In this document: piece after piece, positions 11,974 to 34,359 of the stretch
Position numbering within the stretch: the first letter of the stretch is position 1
Layout: every line of letters begins with the position of its first letter
Assembly (NCBI RefSeq): GCF_016862555.1
Contig: NZ_BONE01000002.1
Span: forward strand, 1-64,000
From: Asanoa siamensis
GTDB taxonomy: Bacteria; Actinomycetota; Actinomycetes; Mycobacteriales; Micromonosporaceae
Direction of reading: 5' to 3'
Length of the DNA: 64,000 bases
Position numbers and translations under genes: made by a program
Notes under the pieces: generated by a model
Told to the model about the DNA's origin: nothing
The model's input: the letters and a program-made list of their open reading frames with translations, nothing else
Databases searched by the model: none

Positions 11974-12435
11974 ATGACCAGTCGGGCGTACGAGGACTCG
12001 GCGCTGCCGCCGATCGTCCGGGAGCTGGTGGTGCCGCTGGGGCCGACGGAGGCGTTCGACCTGTTCACGGCGCGGATCGGCGACTGGTGGCCGCGGGCGT
12101 TCACGGCCTCCGGCGAGGCGCTGGCCGGCGTGGTGCTGGAGCCGCGGGTCGGCGGTCGGGTCTACGAGCGGTCCGGTGACGGCACCGAGCACGCGTGGGG
12201 CGAGGTGGGCATCTGGGAGCTGGCCTCCCGGGTCGCGCTGAGCTGGACGCACGGGCTGCGCACCCCGGGCGCGACGCTGGTCGACGTGAGCTTCACGCCC
12301 GACGGTTCGGTCACCGACGTCCGCCTGGAGCACAGCGGCTGGCACCCCGACCAGTCCGCCGACCACGCCCGCTTCGCCGCCGACGGCGGCTGGACGATGG
12401 TCCTGGAGTCCTACCGCGCCCGGGCGGCCGCCTAG
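11974..12435 (+). CDS. SRPBCC-domain protein (AHSA1 / activator of Hsp90 ATPase-like)
   Basis: A 153-residue START-like ligand-binding fold protein: the opening strand (IVRELVVPLGPTEAFDLFT), the WWP..FTASGEALAGVVLEPRVGGRVYERSGDG pattern and the terminal helix (GWTMVLESYRARA) are characteristic of the AHSA1 group. These proteins bind hydrophobic ligands; most bacterial members have no known role. The start follows a GGAGAAACGG stretch. Divergent from the hydrolase and convergent with the MFS exporter, with stop codons overlapping in CTAG. Confidence 0.85.
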   Translation: MTSRAYEDSALPPIVRELVVPLGPTEAFDLFTARIGDWWPRAFTASGEALAGVVLEPRVGGRVYERSGDGTEHAWGEVGIWELASRVALSWTHGLRTPGATLVDVSFTPDGSVTDVRLEHSGWHPDQSADHARFAADGGWTMVLESYRARAAA

Positions 12436-13775
12436 ACCCGCCGGGCGACCACGACGGCGGCGCCGCCGAGCAGCGTGGAGAGGGCCAGCGTGCCGGCGAA
12501 CGACCACCACGCCCCGATGCCGGCCAGCGACTGGAAGATCAGGCCGGTGACCGCGAGCGCGAGGCTGCCCCCGACCACGTCGGCGATGCTCTTCGCCGCC
12601 GTGTTGAAACCCTGGGTGCCGGGCGCCGACGCGGCCAGCACCAGCGTGCTGACCCGCGGGTAGATGAGCCCCATCCCGCCGCCCGCCAGCAGCCAGCCGG
12701 CGCCGACGAACAGCCAGTGCGGGGTGAACAGCGCGGTGAGCAACTCCGCGGCGGCGCCGGCGGCGAGGAACAGCGTGCCGAGCCGCATCACCGCCGCGTC
12801 GGTCCAGCCGAGCCGGCCCTGGACGTGCGACCCGGTGGCCCAGGAGATCGCCCCGACGGTCAGCGTGAAGCCGGACAGCCAGCTCGGCAGGCCGTACCGG
12901 TCGTGCAGCAGCAGCGGCAGGTAGACCTCGGTGCTGAAGAACGTGCCGCCGGCGGCGGCGCTGAGCAGCACCGCCGCGGGCAGGCCGGGCCGCGCCCGGA
13001 ACGTGTCGGGCGGCAGCAGCCGGCGCACCGTGACCACCACGGCCGCGATCGCCACGGCCGCCAGCAGCCAGCCCCGCGCGTCCGGGAGGTCGCTGGCCAG
13101 GCCGGCCGTGACCGCGCCGCCGGCGACTACCGCGGCCGCGGCGATCCGCCGGCCGTCGCGCGCCGCACCGGGGTCGCCGCCCGGCAGCGCGCCGCGCAGC
13201 GCCGGCAGGGTGAGCAGGGTGGCGGCCCCGACCAGCACGAGCACGCCGAGGAAGACCCAGTGCCAGCTCCACGCGTCGGCGACCAGCCCGGCGACGAACG
13301 GCCCGACCATCGAGGGCACCACCCAGGCCGCGGCGAACAGGCCGAAGATCCGCGGGTGCAGGTCCGCCGGGTAGACGGCGGCCACCAGCACGTACAGGGC
13401 GACGGTGATGCCGCCGGCGCCCAGGCCCTGCAGCAGGCGGCCGGCGACGAAGACCGGCATCGTCGGCGCGGTGCCGGCCACGGCCAGACCCAGCGCGAAG
13501 ACCGCGATCGCCGTCAGCAGCGCCCAGCGCGGCCCGCGCCGGTCGGCCCAGGCGCCCGCGACCACCATCCCGACCACGCCGGTCGCGGTGGCGGCCACGA
13601 ACGCCAGCGAGTAGAGCGCCCGCCCGTCGAGGTCCGCGGTGATCGCCGGCATCACCGTGGTGATCGCCAGCGCCTCGAACGCGGCCAGGAACACCAGGCT
13701 GGTCGAGCCGACCGTGGCCAGGGCGTATCGGCGGGTGAGCAGGCTGGCGCGCGGTTCGGCGAGGGTGGCGGTCAC
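12432..13775 (-). CDS. MFS drug-efflux transporter under a SoxR-like promoter
   Basis: A 447-residue major-facilitator protein with 12 or more hydrophobic helices and the loop motif GAWADRRGPRWALL after helix 2; HKLP-type arrangement and length fit a drug:proton antiporter. The start is taken as the GTG at 13775. It falls about seven bases after a -10 GATCAT, making the message leaderless; the only earlier in-frame start (TTG at 13796) lies inside the operator. The promoter carries a perfect CCTCAA-N6-TTGAGG dyad between -35 and -10, predicting induction by redox-active compounds. In known actinomycetes SoxR controls exporters of this kind. Confidence 0.88.
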   Translation of the reverse strand: MTATLAEPRASLLTRRYALATVGSTSLVFLAAFEALAITTVMPAITADLDGRALYSLAFVAATATGVVGMVVAGAWADRRGPRWALLTAIAVFALGLAVAGTAPTMPVFVAGRLLQGLGAGGITVALYVLVAAVYPADLHPRIFGLFAAAWVVPSMVGPFVAGLVADAWSWHWVFLGVLVLVGAATLLTLPALRGALPGGDPGAARDGRRIAAAAVVAGGAVTAGLASDLPDARGWLLAAVAIAAVVVTVRRLLPPDTFRARPGLPAAVLLSAAAGGTFFSTEVYLPLLLHDRYGLPSWLSGFTLTVGAISWATGSHVQGRLGWTDAAVMRLGTLFLAAGAAAELLTALFTPHWLFVGAGWLLAGGGMGLIYPRVSTLVLAASAPGTQGFNTAAKSIADVVGGSLALAVTGLIFQSLAGIGAWWSFAGTLALSTLLGGAAVVVARRV

Positions 13776-13781
13776 CGCACG

Positions 13782-13812
13782 ATGATCCGACCTCAAGCCC
13801 GCTTGAGGTCAA
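13782..13812 (-). promoter_or_regulatory. MerR-type (SoxR-box) promoter of the MFS exporter
   Basis: Read on the minus strand: -35 TTGACC (13812-13807), 19-bp spacer, -10 GATCAT (13787-13782). The perfect palindrome GACCTCAAGC-CC-GCTTGAGGTC (13789-13810) fills the spacer. The long 19-bp spacer with a centred dyad is the hallmark of MerR-family activators, and CCTCAA-N6-TTGAGG is the SoxR half-site pair. SoxR itself is not in the window. Confidence 0.85.
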
Positions 13813-13818
13813 CCGAAT

Positions 13819-14850
<1,032 letters not shown>

Positions 14851-14981
14851 GGGTCCCATACTGCCTCGCGCACCGGCAGACTGCCCGTCTGATCTTCCTC
14901 TCCAGGTGCGGAGCGCGGTAGCTTGACCGAGCATCGATGATGGTCGAGTTTCCGTCCCGAACGCCCAGGAGGCATCCATCC

Positions 14982-15965
14982 ATGTGCGTCAACGACCACG
15001 AAGCACACCAGAACGTCGCGCCGATGGCCGCGGAGCAGTTGCACACCCTGACCCGGCGCGGTGCGCTGCGGGCCGCGGGCGTCGCGGCGGCGGCGGGGGC
15101 CGTCGGAGCCGTCGGCGGCATGGCGGCCGGCGCGAGCCCGGCCAGCGCGGCACACGGCGGTGGCCGGCCCGGCCGGGTGCCCCGCGACCAGATCAGCGTG
15201 CAGCTCTACACCCTGCGTGACCAGCTCGCGGCCGACCTGCCGGGGACGCTGCGGGCGCTCGCCGACATCGGCTACACCCGGGTCGAGCACGCCGGGTTCG
15301 TCGGCCGCACCGCCGCCCAGTTCAAGGCCGCGCTCGACGCCGTCGGGCTGCGGGCGACCTCCGGCCACGTCGGCATTCCCCAGCCGTTCGACGCCGCCAC
15401 CTGGCAGGCCGCGCTGGCCGACGCCCGGCTGCTGCGCCAGCGCTACATCGTGCACCCGTTCTTCGGCGTCGGCGCCAACGGCGTCATCCGCGACTCGGCG
15501 ACCTACCGGGCGTTCGCCCGCGACCTCAACAAGGCGGGCGCGCTGGCACGCAAGGCCGGGCTGCGCTTCGGCTACCACAACCACCACTTCGAGTTCTTCC
15601 GCCTCGATGGTGGCACCACCACCGGCTGGGACATCCTGACCGAGGAGACCGACCCTGACCTGGTGCACCTCGAGGTCGACCTGTTCTGGGTGACCCGGGG
15701 CGCGCACGACCCGGTCGACGTCATCCAGGCCAACCGTGGCCGGATCAAGCAGTTCCACGTCAAGGACATGAACGCCGACGGCTCGTTCGAGGACGCCGGG
15801 CAGGGTCTGATCGACTTCGCCCGGATCTTCCGGCACGGCCGCGAGGCGGGCATCGACGAGTTCATCGTGGAACGCGACGACGCCGGCACCACGCCGCGCC
15901 AGCCCATCCAGGCGATCGACACGGCCCGGGTGGGTTACAACTACCTGGCCAACCTCAGGTTCTGA
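14982..15965 (+). CDS. Tat-exported sugar-phosphate isomerase/epimerase-like TIM-barrel protein
   Basis: A 327-residue xylose-isomerase-like TIM barrel. An N-terminal twin-arginine signal (LTRRGALRAAGVAAAAG, cut after PASA) directs folded export. The barrel begins at ISVQLYTLRDQL and keeps metal-site residues in GYHNHHFEF, LEVDLFWV and QFHVKDMN. Members isomerise or epimerise sugars or inositols; the exported forms are uncharacterised. The ATG at 14982 follows AGGAGG with nine bases, so the earlier ATG at 14937 is rejected. It is divergent from the reductase gene and convergent with the conservon. Confidence 0.85.
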   Translation: MCVNDHEAHQNVAPMAAEQLHTLTRRGALRAAGVAAAAGAVGAVGGMAAGASPASAAHGGGRPGRVPRDQISVQLYTLRDQLAADLPGTLRALADIGYTRVEHAGFVGRTAAQFKAALDAVGLRATSGHVGIPQPFDAATWQAALADARLLRQRYIVHPFFGVGANGVIRDSATYRAFARDLNKAGALARKAGLRFGYHNHHFEFFRLDGGTTTGWDILTEETDPDLVHLEVDLFWVTRGAHDPVDVIQANRGRIKQFHVKDMNADGSFEDAGQGLIDFARIFRHGREAGIDEFIVERDDAGTTPRQPIQAIDTARVGYNYLANLRF

Positions 15966-15983: not shown

Positions 15984-16592
15984 TCATGCGACAGGTGTCG
16001 GGGAGCCGCGGCCATATTCCTCGCGCAGCGCGCGCATCGCGTGCTCGACGACCTCGATGAGCGTCTCCTTGACCGCGTCACGGCGGCGGGCGTCGGTCAT
16101 CAGCAGCGGGACGTCCGGCGGGATGGCCAGCGCCTCGCGCACCTCGTCGACCTCGTAGGTGCGGGCGCCCTCGAAACAGTTGAGGGCCACCAGATAGGGC
16201 AGGTTCTGGCGCTCGAAATAGTCGAGCGGTGCGAACGCGTCGGTGATGCGGCGGGTGTCGACCAGCACCACCGCGCCGACCGCACCGCGGACGAGCTCGT
16301 CCCACATGAACCAGAACCGGGTCTGACCGGGCGTGCCGAACAGGTAAAGGATCAGGTCCTCGGCCATCGTGATCCGGCCGAAGTCCATCGCCACCGTGGT
16401 GGTCTCCTTGCCGGGCACCTTCGAGCGGTCGTCGATGCCCGCCCCGGCCGTCGTCAGCAGCGCCTCGGTGGTCAGCGGGGTGATCTCGGAGACCGCGCCG
16501 ACCAGCGTCGTCTTGCCCACCCCGAAGCCGCCGGCGATGACGATCTTCGCCGAGACGATGCCCCGCTCGCGGTCATAGCCTGCGTAGTCCAC
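15984..16592 (-). CDS. cvnD: Conservon GTPase (CvnD-type), operon 1
   Basis: A 202-residue small GTP-binding protein, last gene of the first conservon. Walker A GGFGVGKTT lies at residues 21-29, followed by the DFGRI switch, LFGTPGQTRFWFMWDE and an NCFEG base-recognition segment. In actinomycetes the four Cvn proteins form a membrane-associated complex resembling a eukaryotic GPCR/G-protein relay and affecting development or secondary metabolism. A GTG start lets the gene overlap the DUF742 gene by 20 bases, indicating translational coupling. The paralogue in operon 2 (41945-42547) is easily aligned. Confidence 0.93.
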   Translation of the reverse strand: MDYAGYDRERGIVSAKIVIAGGFGVGKTTLVGAVSEITPLTTEALLTTAGAGIDDRSKVPGKETTTVAMDFGRITMAEDLILYLFGTPGQTRFWFMWDELVRGAVGAVVLVDTRRITDAFAPLDYFERQNLPYLVALNCFEGARTYEVDEVREALAIPPDVPLLMTDARRRDAVKETLIEVVEHAMRALREEYGRGSPTPVA

Positions 16593-16938
16593 TCAGCACC
16601 CTCTCCAACAGTTCCATCCGTTCCTCATAGCGCTGGGCGGGTGCGGCGCTGTGCAGCGTCAGCAGTCCCTCGCCGACCATGTCGGCCACGATCACCCGGG
16701 CGACGCCGAGCGGGAGGCGGGTGTACGCGGCGATCTCGGCCAGCGACTGGGGCGCGGACTGGCAGATCTGCGCGATGCGGTACTTGTCGTGGCCCGCGAA
16801 CCTGGCCTCGGCGACGGCCCGTTCGCTGGCCGTCAGCACGGCCTCGAGGGCGATGTGCCGGGAGGGTTCGGTGCGGCCGCGGGTAACCGCGTAGGGGCGC
16901 ACCAGGGCGCCCCGTGGATCGCCGTGCGGCGGCTCCAT
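16573..16938 (-). CDS. cvnC: Conservon DUF742 protein (CvnC-type), operon 1
   Basis: A 121-residue winged-helix-like DUF742 protein. The signature opening LVRPYAVTRGRTEP is present, followed by the helix-turn-helix-like LAEIAAYTRLPLGVARVIVADMVGEGLL and the AQRYEERMELLERVLSGLRRL tail. In conservons this protein binds the roadblock and GTPase partners. The ATG follows GAGGAGGTAACCGCGG. Stop and start overlap with the downstream GTPase. Confidence 0.92.
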   Translation of the reverse strand: MEPPHGDPRGALVRPYAVTRGRTEPSRHIALEAVLTASERAVAEARFAGHDKYRIAQICQSAPQSLAEIAAYTRLPLGVARVIVADMVGEGLLTLHSAAPAQRYEERMELLERVLSGLRRL

Positions 16939-16997
16939 CCGCGGTTACCTCCTCACTGCTGTGCGGGGGCGGCACGTTCTGTTCCATGATGGACTGT

Positions 16998-17414
16998 TCA
17001 GGACCGGCGGCCCAGCGCCGCCTCGCGGCGTTCCGGGGACAGGGCCTTGCCGACCCGCTCGACCAGCAGGGCCATCTCGTAGCCGACCTGCCCGACGTCG
17101 CTGTTGCGCGCGGCGAGCACGGCCATCGCGGAACCGTCGCCGATGGTCATCAGGAACAGGTATCCGCTGTGCATCTCGATCACGTTCTGCAGCACGTTGC
17201 CGCCGTCGAACATCCGCGCGGCACCGGTGGTCAGGCTGACCACGCCCGAGGTGATCGCGGCGAGCTGGTCGGCCCGGTCGGCCGGCAGGTCCCGCGACGA
17301 GGCGAGCAGGAGACCGTCGGCGGACACCGCCACCACGTGCGCGATGCCCGCGACGCTGTCGGCGAAGTTGTCCAGCAACCAGGCCATGTCCTGCATGGTC
17401 GGTGCCTTGTTCAT
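16998..17414 (-). CDS. cvnB: Conservon roadblock/LC7 protein (CvnB-type), operon 1
   Basis: A 138-residue roadblock/LC7 fold protein, resembling GTPase-activating or GTPase-binding platforms such as MglB. The typical [36 protein letters not shown] opening, the [24 protein letters not shown] core and the [12 protein letters not shown]-terminal helix are present. Its ATG overlaps the kinase stop as ATGA, so it is translated with the kinase. It probably transmits sensor state to the GTPase. Confidence 0.93.
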
Positions 17415-20224
17415 CGGTTCTCCTCGCGTTGGTCGAGCTCGGCGCCGGCCGTGCGGCCGCGCTGCACACCGCGGTGGTACGCGGAGAGCAGCCCGCGGAC
17501 CTCCTCCGGCGCACGCTTGACGCCCTGCGGCTGTGGGGTCTCCACACCGCCGGGCACGAGTTGGGCCTGCGGCACCCGCTTCGGCAGGCCCGACCGCGTC
17601 GTGCCGTCGGTCGCCGGCGCGGCGGCCCTGCCGGCCCGCTCCCAGCCCTCGTCCGCCGCGGTGCGCCAGAGGTCGTCGGCCCGTGCGGCCGTTGCCGGGC
17701 CTGCCTGGGCCGGGACCGGGGGTGGGGTGGGCGCGGGCGGCGGCACGGCGGCGGCCGGCGGCAACGGCGGCGTGGGCGGCGTGGGCGGTGGCGATGGCGA
17801 TGGCGCCGGGCGGGGTGGCGGCGCCGGGCGGGGTGGCGGTGGTGCGGGCCGGGGCGGCGGTGGTGCCGCTGTGGTGCCGGCCGCCGGCGACGGGAGGTAG
17901 CCGTCGGGGACCTGCATGATCTGGGTCGAGGTGTGCCCGTGCGACTGGAACCAGACGGCCTCCATCTCGCGGAAGATCGGCATCTCGGTGGTCGCCTCCC
18001 GGCTGGGCTCCGCGAGCAGGGCGGGCTCGGTGCTGGGCGGGGCCGGCACGGTGTTGGGCGCGGCCGGCACGGGACGTGGGGGCGGCGGGACGTCCAGCCG
18101 GACGGGCGGCTCGGCCAGCGTCGTGGCCGACGCGCGGTTGGCCCAGGCGCTGCCACCCGGCACGTGGCCGTTGCCGGCCGCGAGCGTGCCCACCTCGCCC
18201 CCCGCCGGCACCCGCTTGCGGGGCAGCAGGGTCGGCGGACGGCCCGCGTGCAGCGGCACCACCACGATCTCGGCGGGCAGCGTCACCAGGGCGACCGTGC
18301 CCTGGTCGAGGGTGCGGCGCAGCTCGACGAGGATCCGGTAGCGGGCCGCCAGCCGGGCCACGACCGCGAGGCCCATCAGCCGGAACGCCGACACGTCGAC
18401 CGGCGACGGCGCCCGCAGCCGCGCGTTGAGCACCTCGAGCTGGTCGTCGTCGAGGCCGAGCCCGCGGTCCTCGATCTGCACCACGACGTAGTCCCGGACC
18501 CGGCGGGCGTCGGCCACCACCACCGTGTGCGGCGGCGAGAACCGGGTGGCGTTGTCGAGCAGCTCGGAGACGATCCGCACGACGTCGTTGACGGCGCGGG
18601 CGGTCACCGACACGTCGGAGTCGACGGTGCCGAACTCGATCCGGTTGTAGAACTCCACTTCGGACTGCGCGGCGCGCAGCGCGTCGATCAGCAGCGCGTC
18701 CTCGCCCCGCGGCGGTGCGGTGTCGGCGCCGGCCAGCACCAGCAGGTTCTCGTCGTTGCGGCGCATCCGGGTGGCCAGGTGGTCGAGCACGAACAGCTTG
18801 GCCAACCGCTTCGGGTCCTCCTCGCCGCGTTCGATCGCGTCGAGCTCGCCGATGATCCGGTCGACCAGCGTCTGGCTGCGCCGGGCCAGCGTCAGGAACA
18901 TCGCCGAGACGCTGGTGCGCAGCGCGGCCTGTTCGGCCGCGATCCGGACGGCTTCCCGGTGCACCACGTTGAACGCGGCGGCGACCTCGCCGACCTCGTC
19001 GCGGTTGGTCAGCTTGATCGGGTCGCGCACCCCGTTGACGATCTCCTCGACGCCGCCCTCGCCGACCTTCTCGAGCTCGCGGAGCCGGCCGACGGCTTCG
19101 GGGAGACCGTGGTTGGCCACGGTCAGCGCGCCGTCCCGCAGCCGGAACAGCGACCGGTTGAGCGACCGGGCGATCACGATGGCCAGCAGCAGCGCCAGCA
19201 GCAGCACCGTCAGCACGAGCGTGCCCTCGATCGTCGCCTGCCGGACTGCGGCGCCGCGCGCGGTGTCGGCCTGGCCGAGCAGGTCACGCTCGAGGTTGGT
19301 CTCGGAGTAACGCATCAGGTCGTTGACCGCGCCGATGGCCGGGCTGCCGACGGCGGCCGGGAACGGTGCCGGCTCGCCGACCGAGCGGGTGAGCTGGGCC
19401 GAGATCTGGTCGGCGAGCAGCGAGGCGTCGCCCGTGACCGTGCGGTCGACCGTGGCCTGCTGCGCCGCCGAGGCCGATGCCGCGAAGGCGACGAACGCCT
19501 CCTGCTGGCTGGTCAGCGTGGCGACGAACGCGGGGAACTGCTCCTGGCTCAGGCCGCCCGAGGAGAGCGCGAAGAAGACGACCGCCTCCTCCTCGGCGGT
19601 GGCGGCCTTGGCGCGGGCGAACGCCGCCATCGCGCGCAGGCTCTCGGCCAGGTCGCCCTCGCCGGAGACCTGACCGAGGGCCTCGCCGTACGCGACCAGG
19701 TCGTCGAGGACGACGCCGTAGCGCAGGACGGCCTCGGCGACCGACATCTGGCCGCGGGCCAGCGTCTCCTCGCGGATGGCGGCGAGGCCGGCCAGGTGGC
19801 CGTCGATCGCGGCGAGCCGGTCCCGCACCGTCCCGGGGAGGTCGGGGAGGTTGGCCCGGCGGGCGGTGTAGGTCGTCGCGAGCGCGTCGGTGGCGCGTAC
19901 CCGCAGGTTGTAGGGCTCGGCCTGGGCCTCCGGCGTGGCCAGGAACGCGGCGGCCGCCATCCGCTCCTTGTGCAGGCTCTGCGTCAACGCCGAGACGTCG
20001 ATGGAGAGCTCGCTCAGGGAGCGGATCAGCGTCGCCTCGGAGGCCTCGCGGGAGACGTCGACCAGCCGGACCGCCGCGAGCGCGACGACGGCGACCAACG
20101 GCACCAGCAGCAGCAGGCCGAGCTTCGAGCGGATGCGCGCGTCGGCCAGGCGCGGGAAACCCCGTCGCTCCAGGCTCGACGCGCCCGGGCTGCCCGAGGA
20201 CAGCGTCATCCGTCCGGCGCTCAC
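17411..20224 (-). CDS. cvnA: Conservon sensor histidine kinase-like protein with NIT domain (CvnA-type), operon 1
   Basis: A 937-residue membrane sensor. A first membrane helix lies at about 35-55, a long helical extracellular NIT-type domain to about 325, a second helix about 333-352, then a HAMP-like linker and a GHKL ATPase domain with the N-box [15 protein letters not shown] and G-box [11 protein letters not shown]. The phosphoacceptor helix has the conservon form [19 protein letters not shown], lacking an obvious H-box His. About 270 residues of Pro/Ala-rich disordered tail follow. The GTG at 20224 follows GGAGG at seven bases. The gene leads the operon. Confidence 0.92.
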
Positions 20225-20622
20225 GCCATCGCCTCCGTGGTGGGTTACGTGGCGGGTCCGCCACCGGTCGTCACGGCGCCCCCGCGGCTCACGCGGCACG
20301 GCGGCGATTTCATCAGAGTTGGCCGATGTACGGAAGGGTTATGCGGTGCCTAAACGGTCGGTCGGTGCGGATCGGTCGGTCGGCGCCGGAAGCTGTCCAT
20401 TCGGACAGCGCGCTGAGCTGGCCGGTCGCAATCTCCGTGTCGGCTTGGACACGAAAAGTAATGTCCATTGTGCGGACCGCGTTCTCGAATATTGAGACAC
20501 TGAGATATGGAAATTCTTCGTCCTTGACCTCTGGGGACGGGCTTGGCAAGGTTTCTCAACGCTTGCCGACCGCTGTCGGTCCTCGTCTCTCCACTGAGGA
20601 ACGCCTGTCGAGGAGGAATCCC
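20225..20622. other. Divergent regulatory region between conservon 1 and a substrate-binding lipoprotein gene
   Basis: No gene is supported here. The 398 bases include an unusually AT-rich stretch (about 20445-20525, with CTCGAATATTGAGAC), reiterated GGTCGG units near 20358-20383, and a perfect inverted repeat at 20392-20409. It presumably holds the promoters of both divergent units. Confidence 0.5.
20392..20409. promoter_or_regulatory. Candidate operator, perfect inverted repeat
   Basis: GCTGTCC-ATTC-GGACAGC is a perfect 7+4+7 dyad midway in the divergent region upstream of the conservon kinase and the lipoprotein gene. A further GGACA..TGTCC pair follows around 20446-20465. Regulatory function is inferred only from symmetry and position. 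Confidence 0.4.
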
Positions 20623-31355: not shown

Positions 31356-32315
31356 TCAGCCGGACAGAGCCTGGTCGACCACCAGCAGCGTCTTGCCCCG
31401 CGTGGCGCGCGCCTCGATCGCCGCGTGGGCGTCGGCGGCGCGCTCCAGCGGGAAGCGCTGGCCGATCACCGGCCGCAGCCCGCCCGCGGCCGCGAGCCGC
31501 AGCGCCTCACCCGTCAGCGCCCGCAACTCCGCCGGCGTGCCGGTCGCGCCGCGCAGCAGCGTCACCCCGCGCGCCGCGGCCTCCGCGTCGGTCACGTCGG
31601 ACCACGCGCCGCTCGACAACCCGTAGCTGAGCATCCGCCCACCCCGGTCGAGCAGCCCGAACGCCGCCCGTGCCACCGCGCCGCCGACCCCGTCGAAGAC
31701 CACGTCGACGGGCCCGAGGCCGTCCGCCCACCCGGGCGCGGTGTAGTCGACCGCCCGGTCGGCACCCAGGTCGGCGACCAGCCCCAGCTTGCCGCCGCCG
31801 GCCGCGCCGAGCACGGTCGCGCCCGCCGCCTTCGCGAGCTGCACCAGCAGCGTGCCGACGCCGCCCGCGGCCGCTTCGACCAGCACCCGCTCGCCGGGCC
31901 TGGGCGCGGCCGCGCGGAGCAGCAGCAGCGCGGTCCGGCCGTCGGCGAGCAGCGCCACCGCGGTGTCCAGGGCGAGATCGGCGGGCACGGGTACGAGGCC
32001 CGCGGCGTCGACGGCGACCCGGGACGCGTACGCGCCGGAACCGCCGGTCGACGTCACCACCCGGGTGCCGACCAGCGCCGGGTCGACGCCGGGGCCGACC
32101 GCGCCGACCACGCCGCCGACACCGTTGCCGGGCACCATCGGGAGATCGCCCGTGTACGGCCCGAAGCCCGTCGCCCGGAACATCGTCTCGACGAACGTGA
32201 TGTTGGCGTAGGCCACGTCCACCACGACCTGGCCCGGCCCGGGCAGCGGATCGGGCGCCGTGCCGGGCTCGAGCACCGACGGGTCGCCGTACCGCGTCAA
32301 CCACACGACTCGCAT
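31356..32315 (-). CDS. Zinc-less quinone oxidoreductase (NADPH:quinone reductase, MDR family)
   Basis: A 319-residue medium-chain dehydrogenase/reductase. The GroES-like N-terminus (MRVVWLTRYGDPSVLEP, MVPGNGVGGVVGAVG) and the Rossmann motif AAAGGVGTLLVQLAKAAGATVLGAA fit quinone oxidoreductases, and zinc-binding Cys clusters are absent. The ATG at 32315 lies seven bases after a -10 GATCCT, so the message should be leaderless. The promoter is of SoxR-box type like that of the MFS exporter. An oxidoreductase of this class is a classic SoxR target in Streptomyces. Confidence 0.9.
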   Translation of the reverse strand: MRVVWLTRYGDPSVLEPGTAPDPLPGPGQVVVDVAYANITFVETMFRATGFGPYTGDLPMVPGNGVGGVVGAVGPGVDPALVGTRVVTSTGGSGAYASRVAVDAAGLVPVPADLALDTAVALLADGRTALLLLRAAAPRPGERVLVEAAAGGVGTLLVQLAKAAGATVLGAAGGGKLGLVADLGADRAVDYTAPGWADGLGPVDVVFDGVGGAVARAAFGLLDRGGRMLSYGLSSGAWSDVTDAEAAARGVTLLRGATGTPAELRALTGEALRLAAAGGLRPVIGQRFPLERAADAHAAIEARATRGKTLLVVDQALSG

Positions 32316-32322
32316 ACGCCGA

Positions 32323-32353
32323 AGGATCACACCTCAACCGAGGTTGAGGTCAA
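32323..32353 (-). promoter_or_regulatory. MerR-type (SoxR-box) promoter of the quinone oxidoreductase
   Basis: On the minus strand: -35 TTGACC (32353-32348), 19-bp spacer, -10 GATCCT (32328-32323). The spacer carries ACCTCAACCGAGGTTGAGGT (plus strand, 32331-32350), a near-perfect palindrome with CCTCAA-N6-TTGAGG half-sites. The same hexamers and spacing occur at 13782-13812. The -35 overlaps the end of trmO. Confidence 0.85.
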
Positions 32354-32754
32354 CGTTCGGCGACACCGCCGAGGACCGGCTTGACGTCGACGATCGGCGT
32401 ACCGTCGAGGGCTTCCAGGTTGTCGACCTTGACCCGGACGCCGTCGACCTCGAGCACGGTGACCCGGTGCAGGCCGATCGGGTTGGGCCGGTCCGGCGAG
32501 CGCGTGCTGAACACGCCCGTGCGGGGGCGGGTGGCGTCGCCGCGCGGGTGCACCGCGAGCACGTCCCGGGCCGCCCGGTCGAACCAGGTGAGCAGCAGGA
32601 TCTCCTGGCCGGGCGCGAGGTCGGCGAGCGCGGCGGCGACCGCCGGGTCGAACTCCAGCCAGGCGTCGGGCCCGCCCTCGTCGCCCTGTTTCGGCGCGGC
32701 CGCGGCGTCGGTCAGCGGTGAGGAGACGACCCCGACCGGGGAGATCTCAATCAT
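32350..32754 (-). CDS. trmO: tRNA (t6A37)-methyltransferase TrmO-like (TsaA/YaeB)
   Basis: A 134-residue TsaA-domain protein. Signature pieces are [54 protein letters not shown] and [19 protein letters not shown]. coli TrmO methylates N6 of t6A in tRNA-Thr; this actinobacterial form lacks the C-terminal domain and may be divergent. ATG at 32754 overlaps the end of the sigma-factor gene by eight bases, so it is translationally coupled to it, an unexpected pairing. Confidence 0.85.
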
Positions 32755-34003
32755 CCGCCGATCGTAGCGATTCGAGGCGCCGGGCCAGGTAGTCCCGCTC
32801 GGGTTCGTTGCCGACGAGCGCGAGCGCCGACTCGTACGCGTCGGCCGCCTCGCCGGTGCGGCCCAGCCGGCGCAGCAGGTCGGCGCGGGCCGCGGGCAGC
32901 AGGTGGTAGCCGGCGAGATGCCGGTCGGCGGCGAGCGCGTCGAGCAGCGCGAGCCCGGCCTCGGGACCATCCACCATGGCCACCGCGACCGCCCGGTTGA
33001 GCTCGACCAGCGGCGAGGGCGCCACCGCGCGGAGCACGTCGTAGAGCGCGACGACCTGGGGCCAGTCGGTGGTGGAGACGGACGCGGCGTCGTCGTGGAC
33101 GGCGGCGATGGCGGCCTGCAGCGCGTACGGGCCGGGCGGCCCGCCGGTCAGCGCGTCGACCACCAGCCGCCGACCCTCGGTGATCTTGTCGAGCGTCCAC
33201 AGCGAACGGTCCTGGTCGTCGAGCAGCACCAGGCGGCCGGCGGGGTCGACCCGGGCCGGCCGGCGGGCGTCGACCAGCAGCATCAGCGCGAGCAGGCCGG
33301 CCACCTCCCGCTCGCCGGGCAGCAGCCGGTGCAGGATCCGGGCCAGCCGCACCGCCTCGTCGACCAGGTCGCCGCGGACGAGGGTCGGGCCGCCGGTCGC
33401 CGCGTACCCCTCGGTGAAGATCAGGTAGATCACCCGCAGCACCGCCGGGAGCCGGTCGGGTAACTCGGCCGCCGCCGGCACCCGGAACGGGATCCGCGCG
33501 TCGCGGATCTTGCGTTTGGCCCGGACCACGCGCTGCGCCATCGTCGCGGGCGGCACGAGGAACGCCCGCGCGGCCTCGGGCGTGGTCAGGCCGGCCAGGC
33601 AGGTCAGGGTGAGCGCGAGTTGGGCGTCGAGGCCGAGCGCCGGGTGGCAGCAGGTGAAGAACAGCCGCAGCCGTTCGTCGGGCGCGTCGTCGCTCCACAC
33701 CGGATCGACCGGCGGGGCGTTGTCGCGACGGTCGGCCTCGACCTGGAGCAGGGCCAGCTTCGCGGCGAAGACCTTGTCGCGCCGCAGCTTGTCGACGGCG
33801 CGGTGCCGGGCGACCGTGAGCAGCCACGCGCCCGGGCGGTCGGGCACGCCGTCCGTGGGCCAGCGCGCCACGGCGGTCGCGACCGCGTCGGCCGCGACCT
33901 CCTCTGCCAGGTCGAGATCGCCCAGGGTACGGACGAGCGCCGCGAGCAGCCGGCCCCACTCCTCGCGGAAGACGGCTTCGACGCTGTCCGTACCCATGGG
34001 CAT
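32747..34003 (-). CDS. ECF sigma factor with long C-terminal (TPR-like) extension, ECF42-like, copy 1
   Basis: A 418-residue sigma-70-like factor. Region 2 is [38 protein letters not shown] to KLRRDK, region 4 is [55 protein letters not shown], then about 200 residues of helical repeats ([23 protein letters not shown]) replace an anti-sigma factor, as in the ECF42 group. The gene follows a YCII/DGPF gene by five bases and overlaps trmO. A second YCII/sigma pair lies at 51607-53155. The start at 34003 (or 33997) lacks a clear ribosome site and depends on coupling. Confidence 0.9.
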
Positions 34004-34008
34004 GGTGC

Positions 34009-34359
34009 TCAGTCGCCGAACTCCATGATGGGGCGGACCTCGATGGAGCCGCGGGTCGCGCCGGGGCAGCGCTCGGCCCACTCGATCGCGGCGTCCAGGT
34101 CGGGCACGTCGATCAGGTAGTAGCCGCCGAGCACCTCGCGGGTCTCGGCGAACGGGCCGTCGGTGACCATCCGCTGCCCGTCGCGCACCCGCACGGTCGT
34201 GGCGGTCGACGACTCCTGCAGCGCGTCGCTCCCCTGGACGACGCCCGCCTTCTGGATCGCGTCGGAGTAGGCCCAGTACTCGTTCATCACCTTCTCGTCC
34301 TCGGCCGGGTCGGGCGTGCCGCGGTTTTCCTCGCTGTAGATCAGCAACAGGTAGCGCAT
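34009..34359 (-). CDS. YCII/DGPF-domain protein, partner of ECF sigma factor 1
   Basis: A 116-residue YCII-related (DGPF) protein: [14 protein letters not shown] at the start, the name-giving [34 protein letters not shown] and EVRPIMEF at the end. These genes nearly always precede ECF42-type sigma genes; whether the protein is a sensor, a regulator or a target is not settled. The start is preceded by GGGAGAAACCC. It leads the YCII-sigma-trmO operon. Confidence 0.92.

Follow-up and report, generated by a model that had tools for sequence, protein, structure and literature searches.

The window, the whole 64,000-nucleotide stretch of Asanoa siamensis DNA that was analysed, carries on its minus strand a gene for an exporter-like major facilitator (MFS) transporter, preceded by a compact promoter whose spacer is occupied almost entirely by a palindrome. 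The parts of this arrangement are:

12432-13775, minus strand: MFS transporter of 447 amino acids, exporter-like, matching MFS_1 and weakly resembling EmrB, EmrD and SdrM
13775-13773, minus strand: GTG start codon of the transporter gene, six bases past the -10 element, at the expected transcription start and in the same place in six of six genus members
13787-13782, minus strand: -10 element GATCAT, 19 nt from the -35 element, with its second-position A and sixth-position T as the conserved letters
13790-13809, no strand assigned: SoxR box ACCTCAAGCCCGCTTGAGGT, inside the dyad at 13789-13810
13812-13807, minus strand: -35 element TTGACC, from direct reading, identical in six of six genus members
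13819-14859, minus strand: Xi-class glutathione S-transferase (GST)-like protein of the hydroquinone reductase type, directly upstream, start uncertain

The MFS gene that the initial annotation placed downstream of the promoter is borne out by a Pfam match to MFS_1 (E 1.8e-33, above the cut-off). The pump resembles drug exporters, but lies far below the listed curated efflux cut-offs: among the best 25 of 36 NCBIfam families, it scored 67.4 bits against SdrM (cut-off 550) and 58.5 against efflux_EmrB (cut-off 230.2), and belonged to no curated efflux subfamily. By these scores it is related to the SdrM and efflux_EmrB families, rather than a member of either. The GST-like gene, searched as 13819-14871, ends 43 bases before the pump GTG on the same strand; the structures matched by its product are 4PTS, 3R3E (YqjG) and 4USS, and the Xi class is the family of glutathionyl-hydroquinone reductases. 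Further upstream on this strand, at 15984-20299, are four adjacent genes encoding a NIT/HATPase sensor kinase, a Roadblock/LC7 protein, a DUF742 protein and an ATP_bind_1 protein, a set which we take to be of the conservon type.

Promoters of the MerR family have 19-20 bp between the -35 and -10 elements, with a dyad in between. Read directly, the minus strand of the promoter region runs ...gaattcggTTGACCTCAAGCGGGCTTGAGGTCGGATCATCGTGCGGTGACC..., with TTGACC, 19 nt, GATCAT, six bases and GTG following one another as the initial annotation had described, although the dyad it quoted was the plus-strand reading and the coding strand is the minus. Its placement of this dyad within the 19-bp spacer stands only in part: the perfect inverted repeat (10+2+10, at 13789-13810) covers 18 of the 19 spacer positions, but is not wholly inside, reaching into the final four bases of TTGACC. 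The dyad CCTCAA-N6-TTGAGG, by which a SoxR-regulated promoter is recognised, is present exactly. Aligned with the E. coli SoxR box, given as CCTCAAGTTAACTTGAGG in the available text of PMC4411124, the pump box has equal letters at 14 of 18 positions, the differences being the four central letters alone. The leaderless geometry proposed earlier, with the GTG at the expected transcription start, also holds, and in all six genus members this GTG (13775) is the only in-frame ATG or GTG from -60 to +80 nt of the box end. A longer reading frame opening at a TTG inside the box (13796) was rejected because the codon is not conserved in the genus, being TTC in G003 and G005.

The box occurs far more often than chance predicts. 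Over its 14 fixed positions, ACCTCAA-N6-TTGAGGT has four exact matches in the 8.78-Mb genome, whereas base composition would predict about 0.003 and a first-order model 0.002; CCTCAA-N6-TTGAGG in reversed form, used as a control, had 0 matches. These counts uphold the earlier reading of the dyad as a SoxR box. Mismatched copies are uninformative: with up to three mismatches there were 75 matches per strand in the genome versus 48 for the reversed control, and with up to two mismatches there were two in the window, both exact, a number reached by 26 of 100 shuffles. The genome scan also gave five sites with two mismatches. One of the exact copies outside the pump promoter lies within the window itself:

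32331-32350, no strand assigned: second exact SoxR box ACCTCAACCGAGGTTGAGGT, from the pattern scan of the window and genome
32328-32323, minus strand: -10 element GATCCT of the second box
31356-32315, minus strand: gene of the zinc-type quinone oxidoreductase/alcohol dehydrogenase family, with an ATG at box offset 16 and thus also of leaderless geometry

This second layout of box and quinone oxidoreductase gene is identical in G001 and G002, and it is separated from the pump box by about 18.5 kb in the window, about 19 kb in G001 and 8.5 kb in G002. On its other side, in the minus-strand stretch 32350-34359, the end of a TrmO-like gene meets the box, and a gene for a sigma-70-domain protein with DUF6596 adjoins a YCII-domain gene. 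The third exact copy (C38) precedes another quinone oxidoreductase gene. The fourth (C31; L045:4842-5198) has no -10 letters, and the NAD_binding_2 gene after it is truncated at the N-terminus; it is perhaps a decayed target, and an exact match is therefore no guarantee of a working promoter. A further box, with a single mismatch, has on one side a SoxR gene termed soxR_A and on the other, divergently oriented, an NmrA-like gene with its ATG 16 nt past the box.

Conservation of the pump promoter extends through the six genus genomes and into the family. All six genus genomes have TTGACC, the dyad, an identical CGTGCG and the GTG in the same place, with 16 of 16 dyad letters in four of them, 14 of 16 in G003 and 13 of 16 in G005 (second half-site degenerate). 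The GST-like gene lies upstream of the pump in five of the six; it is missing there from G002, in which the pump promoter and GTG are the same. Homologues of the pump were found in 23 of 61 family genomes at E 1e-50, with no homologue in the other 38 at this threshold, and three further genus members brought the set to 26, spanning 38-100% identity. A box with at least 12 of 16 letters precedes 25 of the 26, together with the A and T of the -10 element in their positions; in other stretches of these loci the best score over 410 bases was 12 or more in 2 of 206. The one homologue with no box (G058, L291) is just downstream of a quinone oxidoreductase gene on the same strand, and an exact box and soxR lie on that gene's other side. 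An in-frame start at box offset 15 or 16 was present in 21 of the 26, the six genus members included, and absent from those offsets in G042, G072, G008, G068 and G058. Some homologues (L278, L280, L282, L283, L284 and L290) have ACTTCAA/TTGAAG-like boxes where the others have ACCTCAA, and their start geometry is unchanged. Over 60 bases the box region of the family genome G042 (L084) is identical to that of Planosporangium mesophilum (L155), a member of the Micromonosporaceae.

The same geometry recurs at most of the box sites examined. Fifty sites from the family search (in 27 of 61 genomes), and one in G004, had the -10 letters at exactly 19 nt, with the A (offset 4) in 45 of 51 and the T (offset 8) in 50 of 51, consistent with the MerR-type promoter with a 19-bp spacer proposed initially. 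At 34 of these 51 sites, TTGAGG is followed after 15-17 nt by an ATG or GTG from which a frame runs for 85 codons or more. A mechanical rule accepting offsets of 14-17 gave 36, but the lower figure is quoted because two offset-14 starts (L088 and L105) look spurious, the homologous start at L105 being at offset 42. A start could be assigned at 33-65 nt in 12 of the 15 sites without one at 14-17, and eight of these 12 have a ribosome-site-like 4-mer, versus 6 of the 36 with starts at 14-17. Between phyla, starts at offset 14-17 were found in 27 of 44 actinobacterial stretches versus 1 of 35 proteobacterial ones (80 of 119 stretches, from named genomes), a contrast for which Fisher's test, ignoring kinship, gave 1.4e-8, and since the sites and genomes are related such P values overstate certainty. 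This comparison, which left out L165 (Brevefilum), assigned phyla from record titles and accepted any frame that had 85 or more codons or was still open where the locus ended, with no homology check, such that some starts may be wrong; the actinobacterial set includes two genera (L155 and L217) that are probably of the window's own family. At the same -10 offset, the proteobacterial stretches of these 80 of 119 had the A in 33 of 35 and, more weakly, the T in 16 of 35.

According to the available text of PMC4895711 and PMC4681348, leaderless transcripts are those with a 5' leader under about 9-10 nt, and PMC4895711 puts their share of primary start sites at about 21% in S. coelicolor, a species of another genus than Asanoa. 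The geometry of the pump gene fits this definition and is conserved, and the transcript start is predicted to follow from it. Within the literature covered, which comprised mostly titles and abstract openings and few subscription papers, there was no report of leaderless SoxR targets.

A Pfam scan covered 48 products, these being those of 47 of the 51 sites (L082, L085, L109 and L112 were left out) and the neighbour of soxR_A. Half of them (24/48) were of the zinc-binding dehydrogenase/quinone oxidoreductase type, eight were MFS transporters, including four that are the genus's own copies of the Asanoa pump, and among the others were four NmrA-like proteins, two questin-oxidase-like proteins, a single flavin reductase and a single FMN reductase. 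This set fits the SoxR regulon of S. coelicolor, as far as the available part of PMC4146615 describes it. The activators of S. coelicolor SoxR named in the accessible text of PMC5288332 are phenazine methosulfate, benzoquinone and plumbagin; paraquat and menadione bisulfite have no such effect.

SoxR genes themselves accompany the box. Among 154 loci that were retrieved for having a box or the pump, with some overlap between them, the SoxR profile found 35 matches. Thirty-one distinct loci, eight actinobacterial and 23 proteobacterial, encode a SoxR with the Cys4 motif, and one further match duplicates one of these; the remaining three matches are actinobacterial, one being cut off where its locus ends and two being MerR-like with no Cys4 motif (L197, from Amycolatopsis eburnea, and L072, from G022). 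In every Cys4 locus except L199, the SoxR frame is no more than 300 nt from the box, and the divergent gene is, or looks like, one for an MFS transporter in L090 (G009) and in L174 (Amycolatopsis suaedae). Across the 22 family genomes in both searches, all ten with an exact -35-plus-box encode a SoxR over the curated cut-off; twelve have no exact -35-plus-box, of which nine encode such a SoxR, and the three genomes without one (one of them only 69% complete) have no box.

The A. siamensis genome has at least 27 MerR-domain loci, this being the number listed when 150 of the 305 first-look candidates were scored, and encodes the SoxR Cys4 motif CX2CXCX5C twice, in soxR_A (C30), with the cluster motif CTGCGCLSFDEC, and in soxR_B (C3). 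The best solved relative of soxR_A is E. coli SoxR (2ZHG, E 7e-41), from which it differs at several recognition-region residues (SALRFYE for SALHFYE). The box upstream of soxR_A matches 13 of 14 letters, and a soxR_A-type gene with a box of 12-13 of 14 is present in all six genus genomes, the copy in G004 being only a partial match to the SoxR profile without the Cys motif. In a tree of 47 SoxR proteins the soxR_A genes of the genus group with others bearing CCTCAA-like dyads, in an 11-row group that is weakly supported and contains a well-supported inner group of seven rows. By contrast, soxR_B falls among soxR genes of which many lie beside a different dyad, ACTTGAAGT-N2-ACTTCAAGT. Dyads like the latter accompany soxR in 17 of the 47 rows by the analysis's own thresholds (order-wide; L017-L042 and L120-L135), and possibly represent a change of operator specificity; an exact copy of their core, CTTGAAG-N4-CTTCAAG, is absent from the A. 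siamensis genome and present in only 3 of 61 family genomes, so that the idea of a separate soxR_B regulon in the family was set aside. The dyad labels cluster on the tree, with 7 and 5 changes versus 15.1 and 14.2 when shuffled, and separate incompletely, with 8 of 19 CCTCAA-type rows outside the CCTCAA group by the analysis's own thresholds.

Since soxR_B is present without an adjacent box, we infer the identity of the acting SoxR. The regulator might be soxR_B, which also encodes the Cys4 motif, or a cluster-less MerR protein, in which case the promoter would still be of the MerR type; indeed a motif-less MerR-like gene lies at the box on the opposite strand in L197, a locus with both box and MFS gene, and L072 has a weak MerR-like match beside its box. 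Furthermore, a regulator need not carry its own box, and the MerR-domain loci come from about half of the first-look candidates. We give this alternative a small probability. The soxR genes on the side of soxR_B are those often found beside the other dyad, whose core is absent as an exact copy, and soxR_B has neither kind of box in any of the six genus members by the thresholds set here. The CCTCAA box is found at soxR_A alone among the 27 MerR-domain loci, the best of the other 26 matching 9 of 14 letters in the 260 nt upstream of the domain, which lowers the chance that one of these is the regulator without reducing it to nothing.

A quite unlikely alternative accepts SoxR binding, but has the pump translated mainly from a longer mRNA, arising through read-through from the GST-like gene or from an undetected upstream start. 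The proximity of that gene would permit this, a simple scan of 13400-15100 having found no terminator-like site between them, and a half-site of the box holds GAGG, albeit some 15 nt before the GTG; yet no sigma-70-type promoter (spacer 16-18 nt) turned up in the same scan, G002 keeps the box and GTG with no GST gene to read through, and the start offset of 15-16 is retained in 21 of 26 homologues. Because the inverted repeat is perfect over 10 bp and comes after the stop codon of the GST-like gene, it might be taken for a terminator hairpin or for a palindrome that arose by chance; this reading is extremely improbable and was rejected, given four exact copies against about 0.003 expected, a two-base loop with no T run, the lack of any terminator-like match in the simple scan, and the retention of the dyad in G002 without GST.

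The explanation we consider probable is therefore that a SoxR-activated promoter drives a leaderless mRNA for an MFS exporter of molecules that are probably quinone-like or otherwise redox-active. The box, its spacing, the conserved start position and the conserved link to SoxR genes, each of which is evident in the sequences compared, give good support to the view that SoxR controls a leaderless exporter gene. In proteins of the SoxR/MerR type, oxidation of the cluster by a redox-active compound leads to a distortion of the DNA that makes an over-long spacer usable. At the pump gene, a SoxR dimer with [2Fe-2S] clusters, most likely soxR_A, would sit on the dyad between the -35 and -10 elements, where the 19-nt gap is expected to be too long for RNA polymerase to use unaided. 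A redox-active compound would oxidise the clusters, SoxR would distort the DNA and the promoter would open, with transcription predicted to begin at GTG 13775, or within a base of it, and so to yield a leaderless mRNA. We infer such binding, redox switching and transcript start, as well as the substrate of the pump. The pump may act alongside the two quinone oxidoreductases and the NmrA-like reductase whose genes have boxes of this kind; export of a redox-active drug, as initially predicted, is suggested more weakly, by the regulator and by the neighbouring and co-regulated genes, and the sequence does not tell an endogenous from a foreign ligand.

This conserved MFS pump thereby joins the likely actinobacterial SoxR regulon in the Micromonosporaceae, a family of antibiotic producers. 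The combination of the box, NANNNT at 19 nt and a start 15-17 nt past TTGAGG offers a cheap means of finding SoxR targets and of checking start codons. The contrast with Proteobacteria raises the testable question of whether the drug response is deliberately leaderless. It is conceivable, though doubtful, that leaderless translation is a lineage-wide, selected design of actinobacterial SoxR promoters, in which the -35 element, SoxR dyad, -10 element and start codon form a rigid cassette of ~40 bp before pumps and quinone-processing enzymes. Were that so, the response to redox antibiotics would need no Shine-Dalgarno-dependent initiation.

MFS pumps under SoxR control are already known, and the closest parallel is mfsA of S. 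maltophilia, which the available text of PMC4411124 describes as an MFS paraquat pump gene bound and activated by SoxR. Its promoter, TTGACC-19-CATGCT with the box ACCTCAACTGCAGTTGAGGT, shares with that of Asanoa the TTGACC, the 19 bp and a -10 element with A in second and T in sixth position, and its dyad ACCTCAAC...GTTGAGGT likewise spans the spacer. However, the mfsA mRNA has a leader of 39 or 42 nt, whereas the Asanoa start codon is at the expected +1, and soxR is divergent from mfsA in S. maltophilia (PMC4411124) but lies elsewhere in Asanoa. The cyanobacterial CvkR, as portrayed in the accessible part of PMC9938897, also combines a MerR-family regulator with a leaderless mRNA, although it acts as a repressor of a CRISPR-associated transposon system, unlike the Asanoa case. 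In S. coelicolor, leaderless mRNAs have the start codon at or near the 5' end, like the geometry described here (PMC4895711 and PMC4681348, from their available text); the accessible part of PMC4895711 makes no tie between them and SoxR or MerR promoters, PMC4681348 holds neither word, and the S. coelicolor regulon paper (PMC4146615) has no word beginning 'leader' in its text. As given in the available part of that paper, the S. coelicolor transporter is an ABC protein (SCO7008/ecaA) rather than an MFS one, and S. coelicolor soxR is not autoregulated, whereas soxR_A of Asanoa has its own copy of the box. Nevertheless, it is the content of the regulon that the two share, with a transporter, oxidoreductases, an epimerase/dehydratase and a quinone oxidoreductase placed under an actinobacterial SoxR (PMC4146615).
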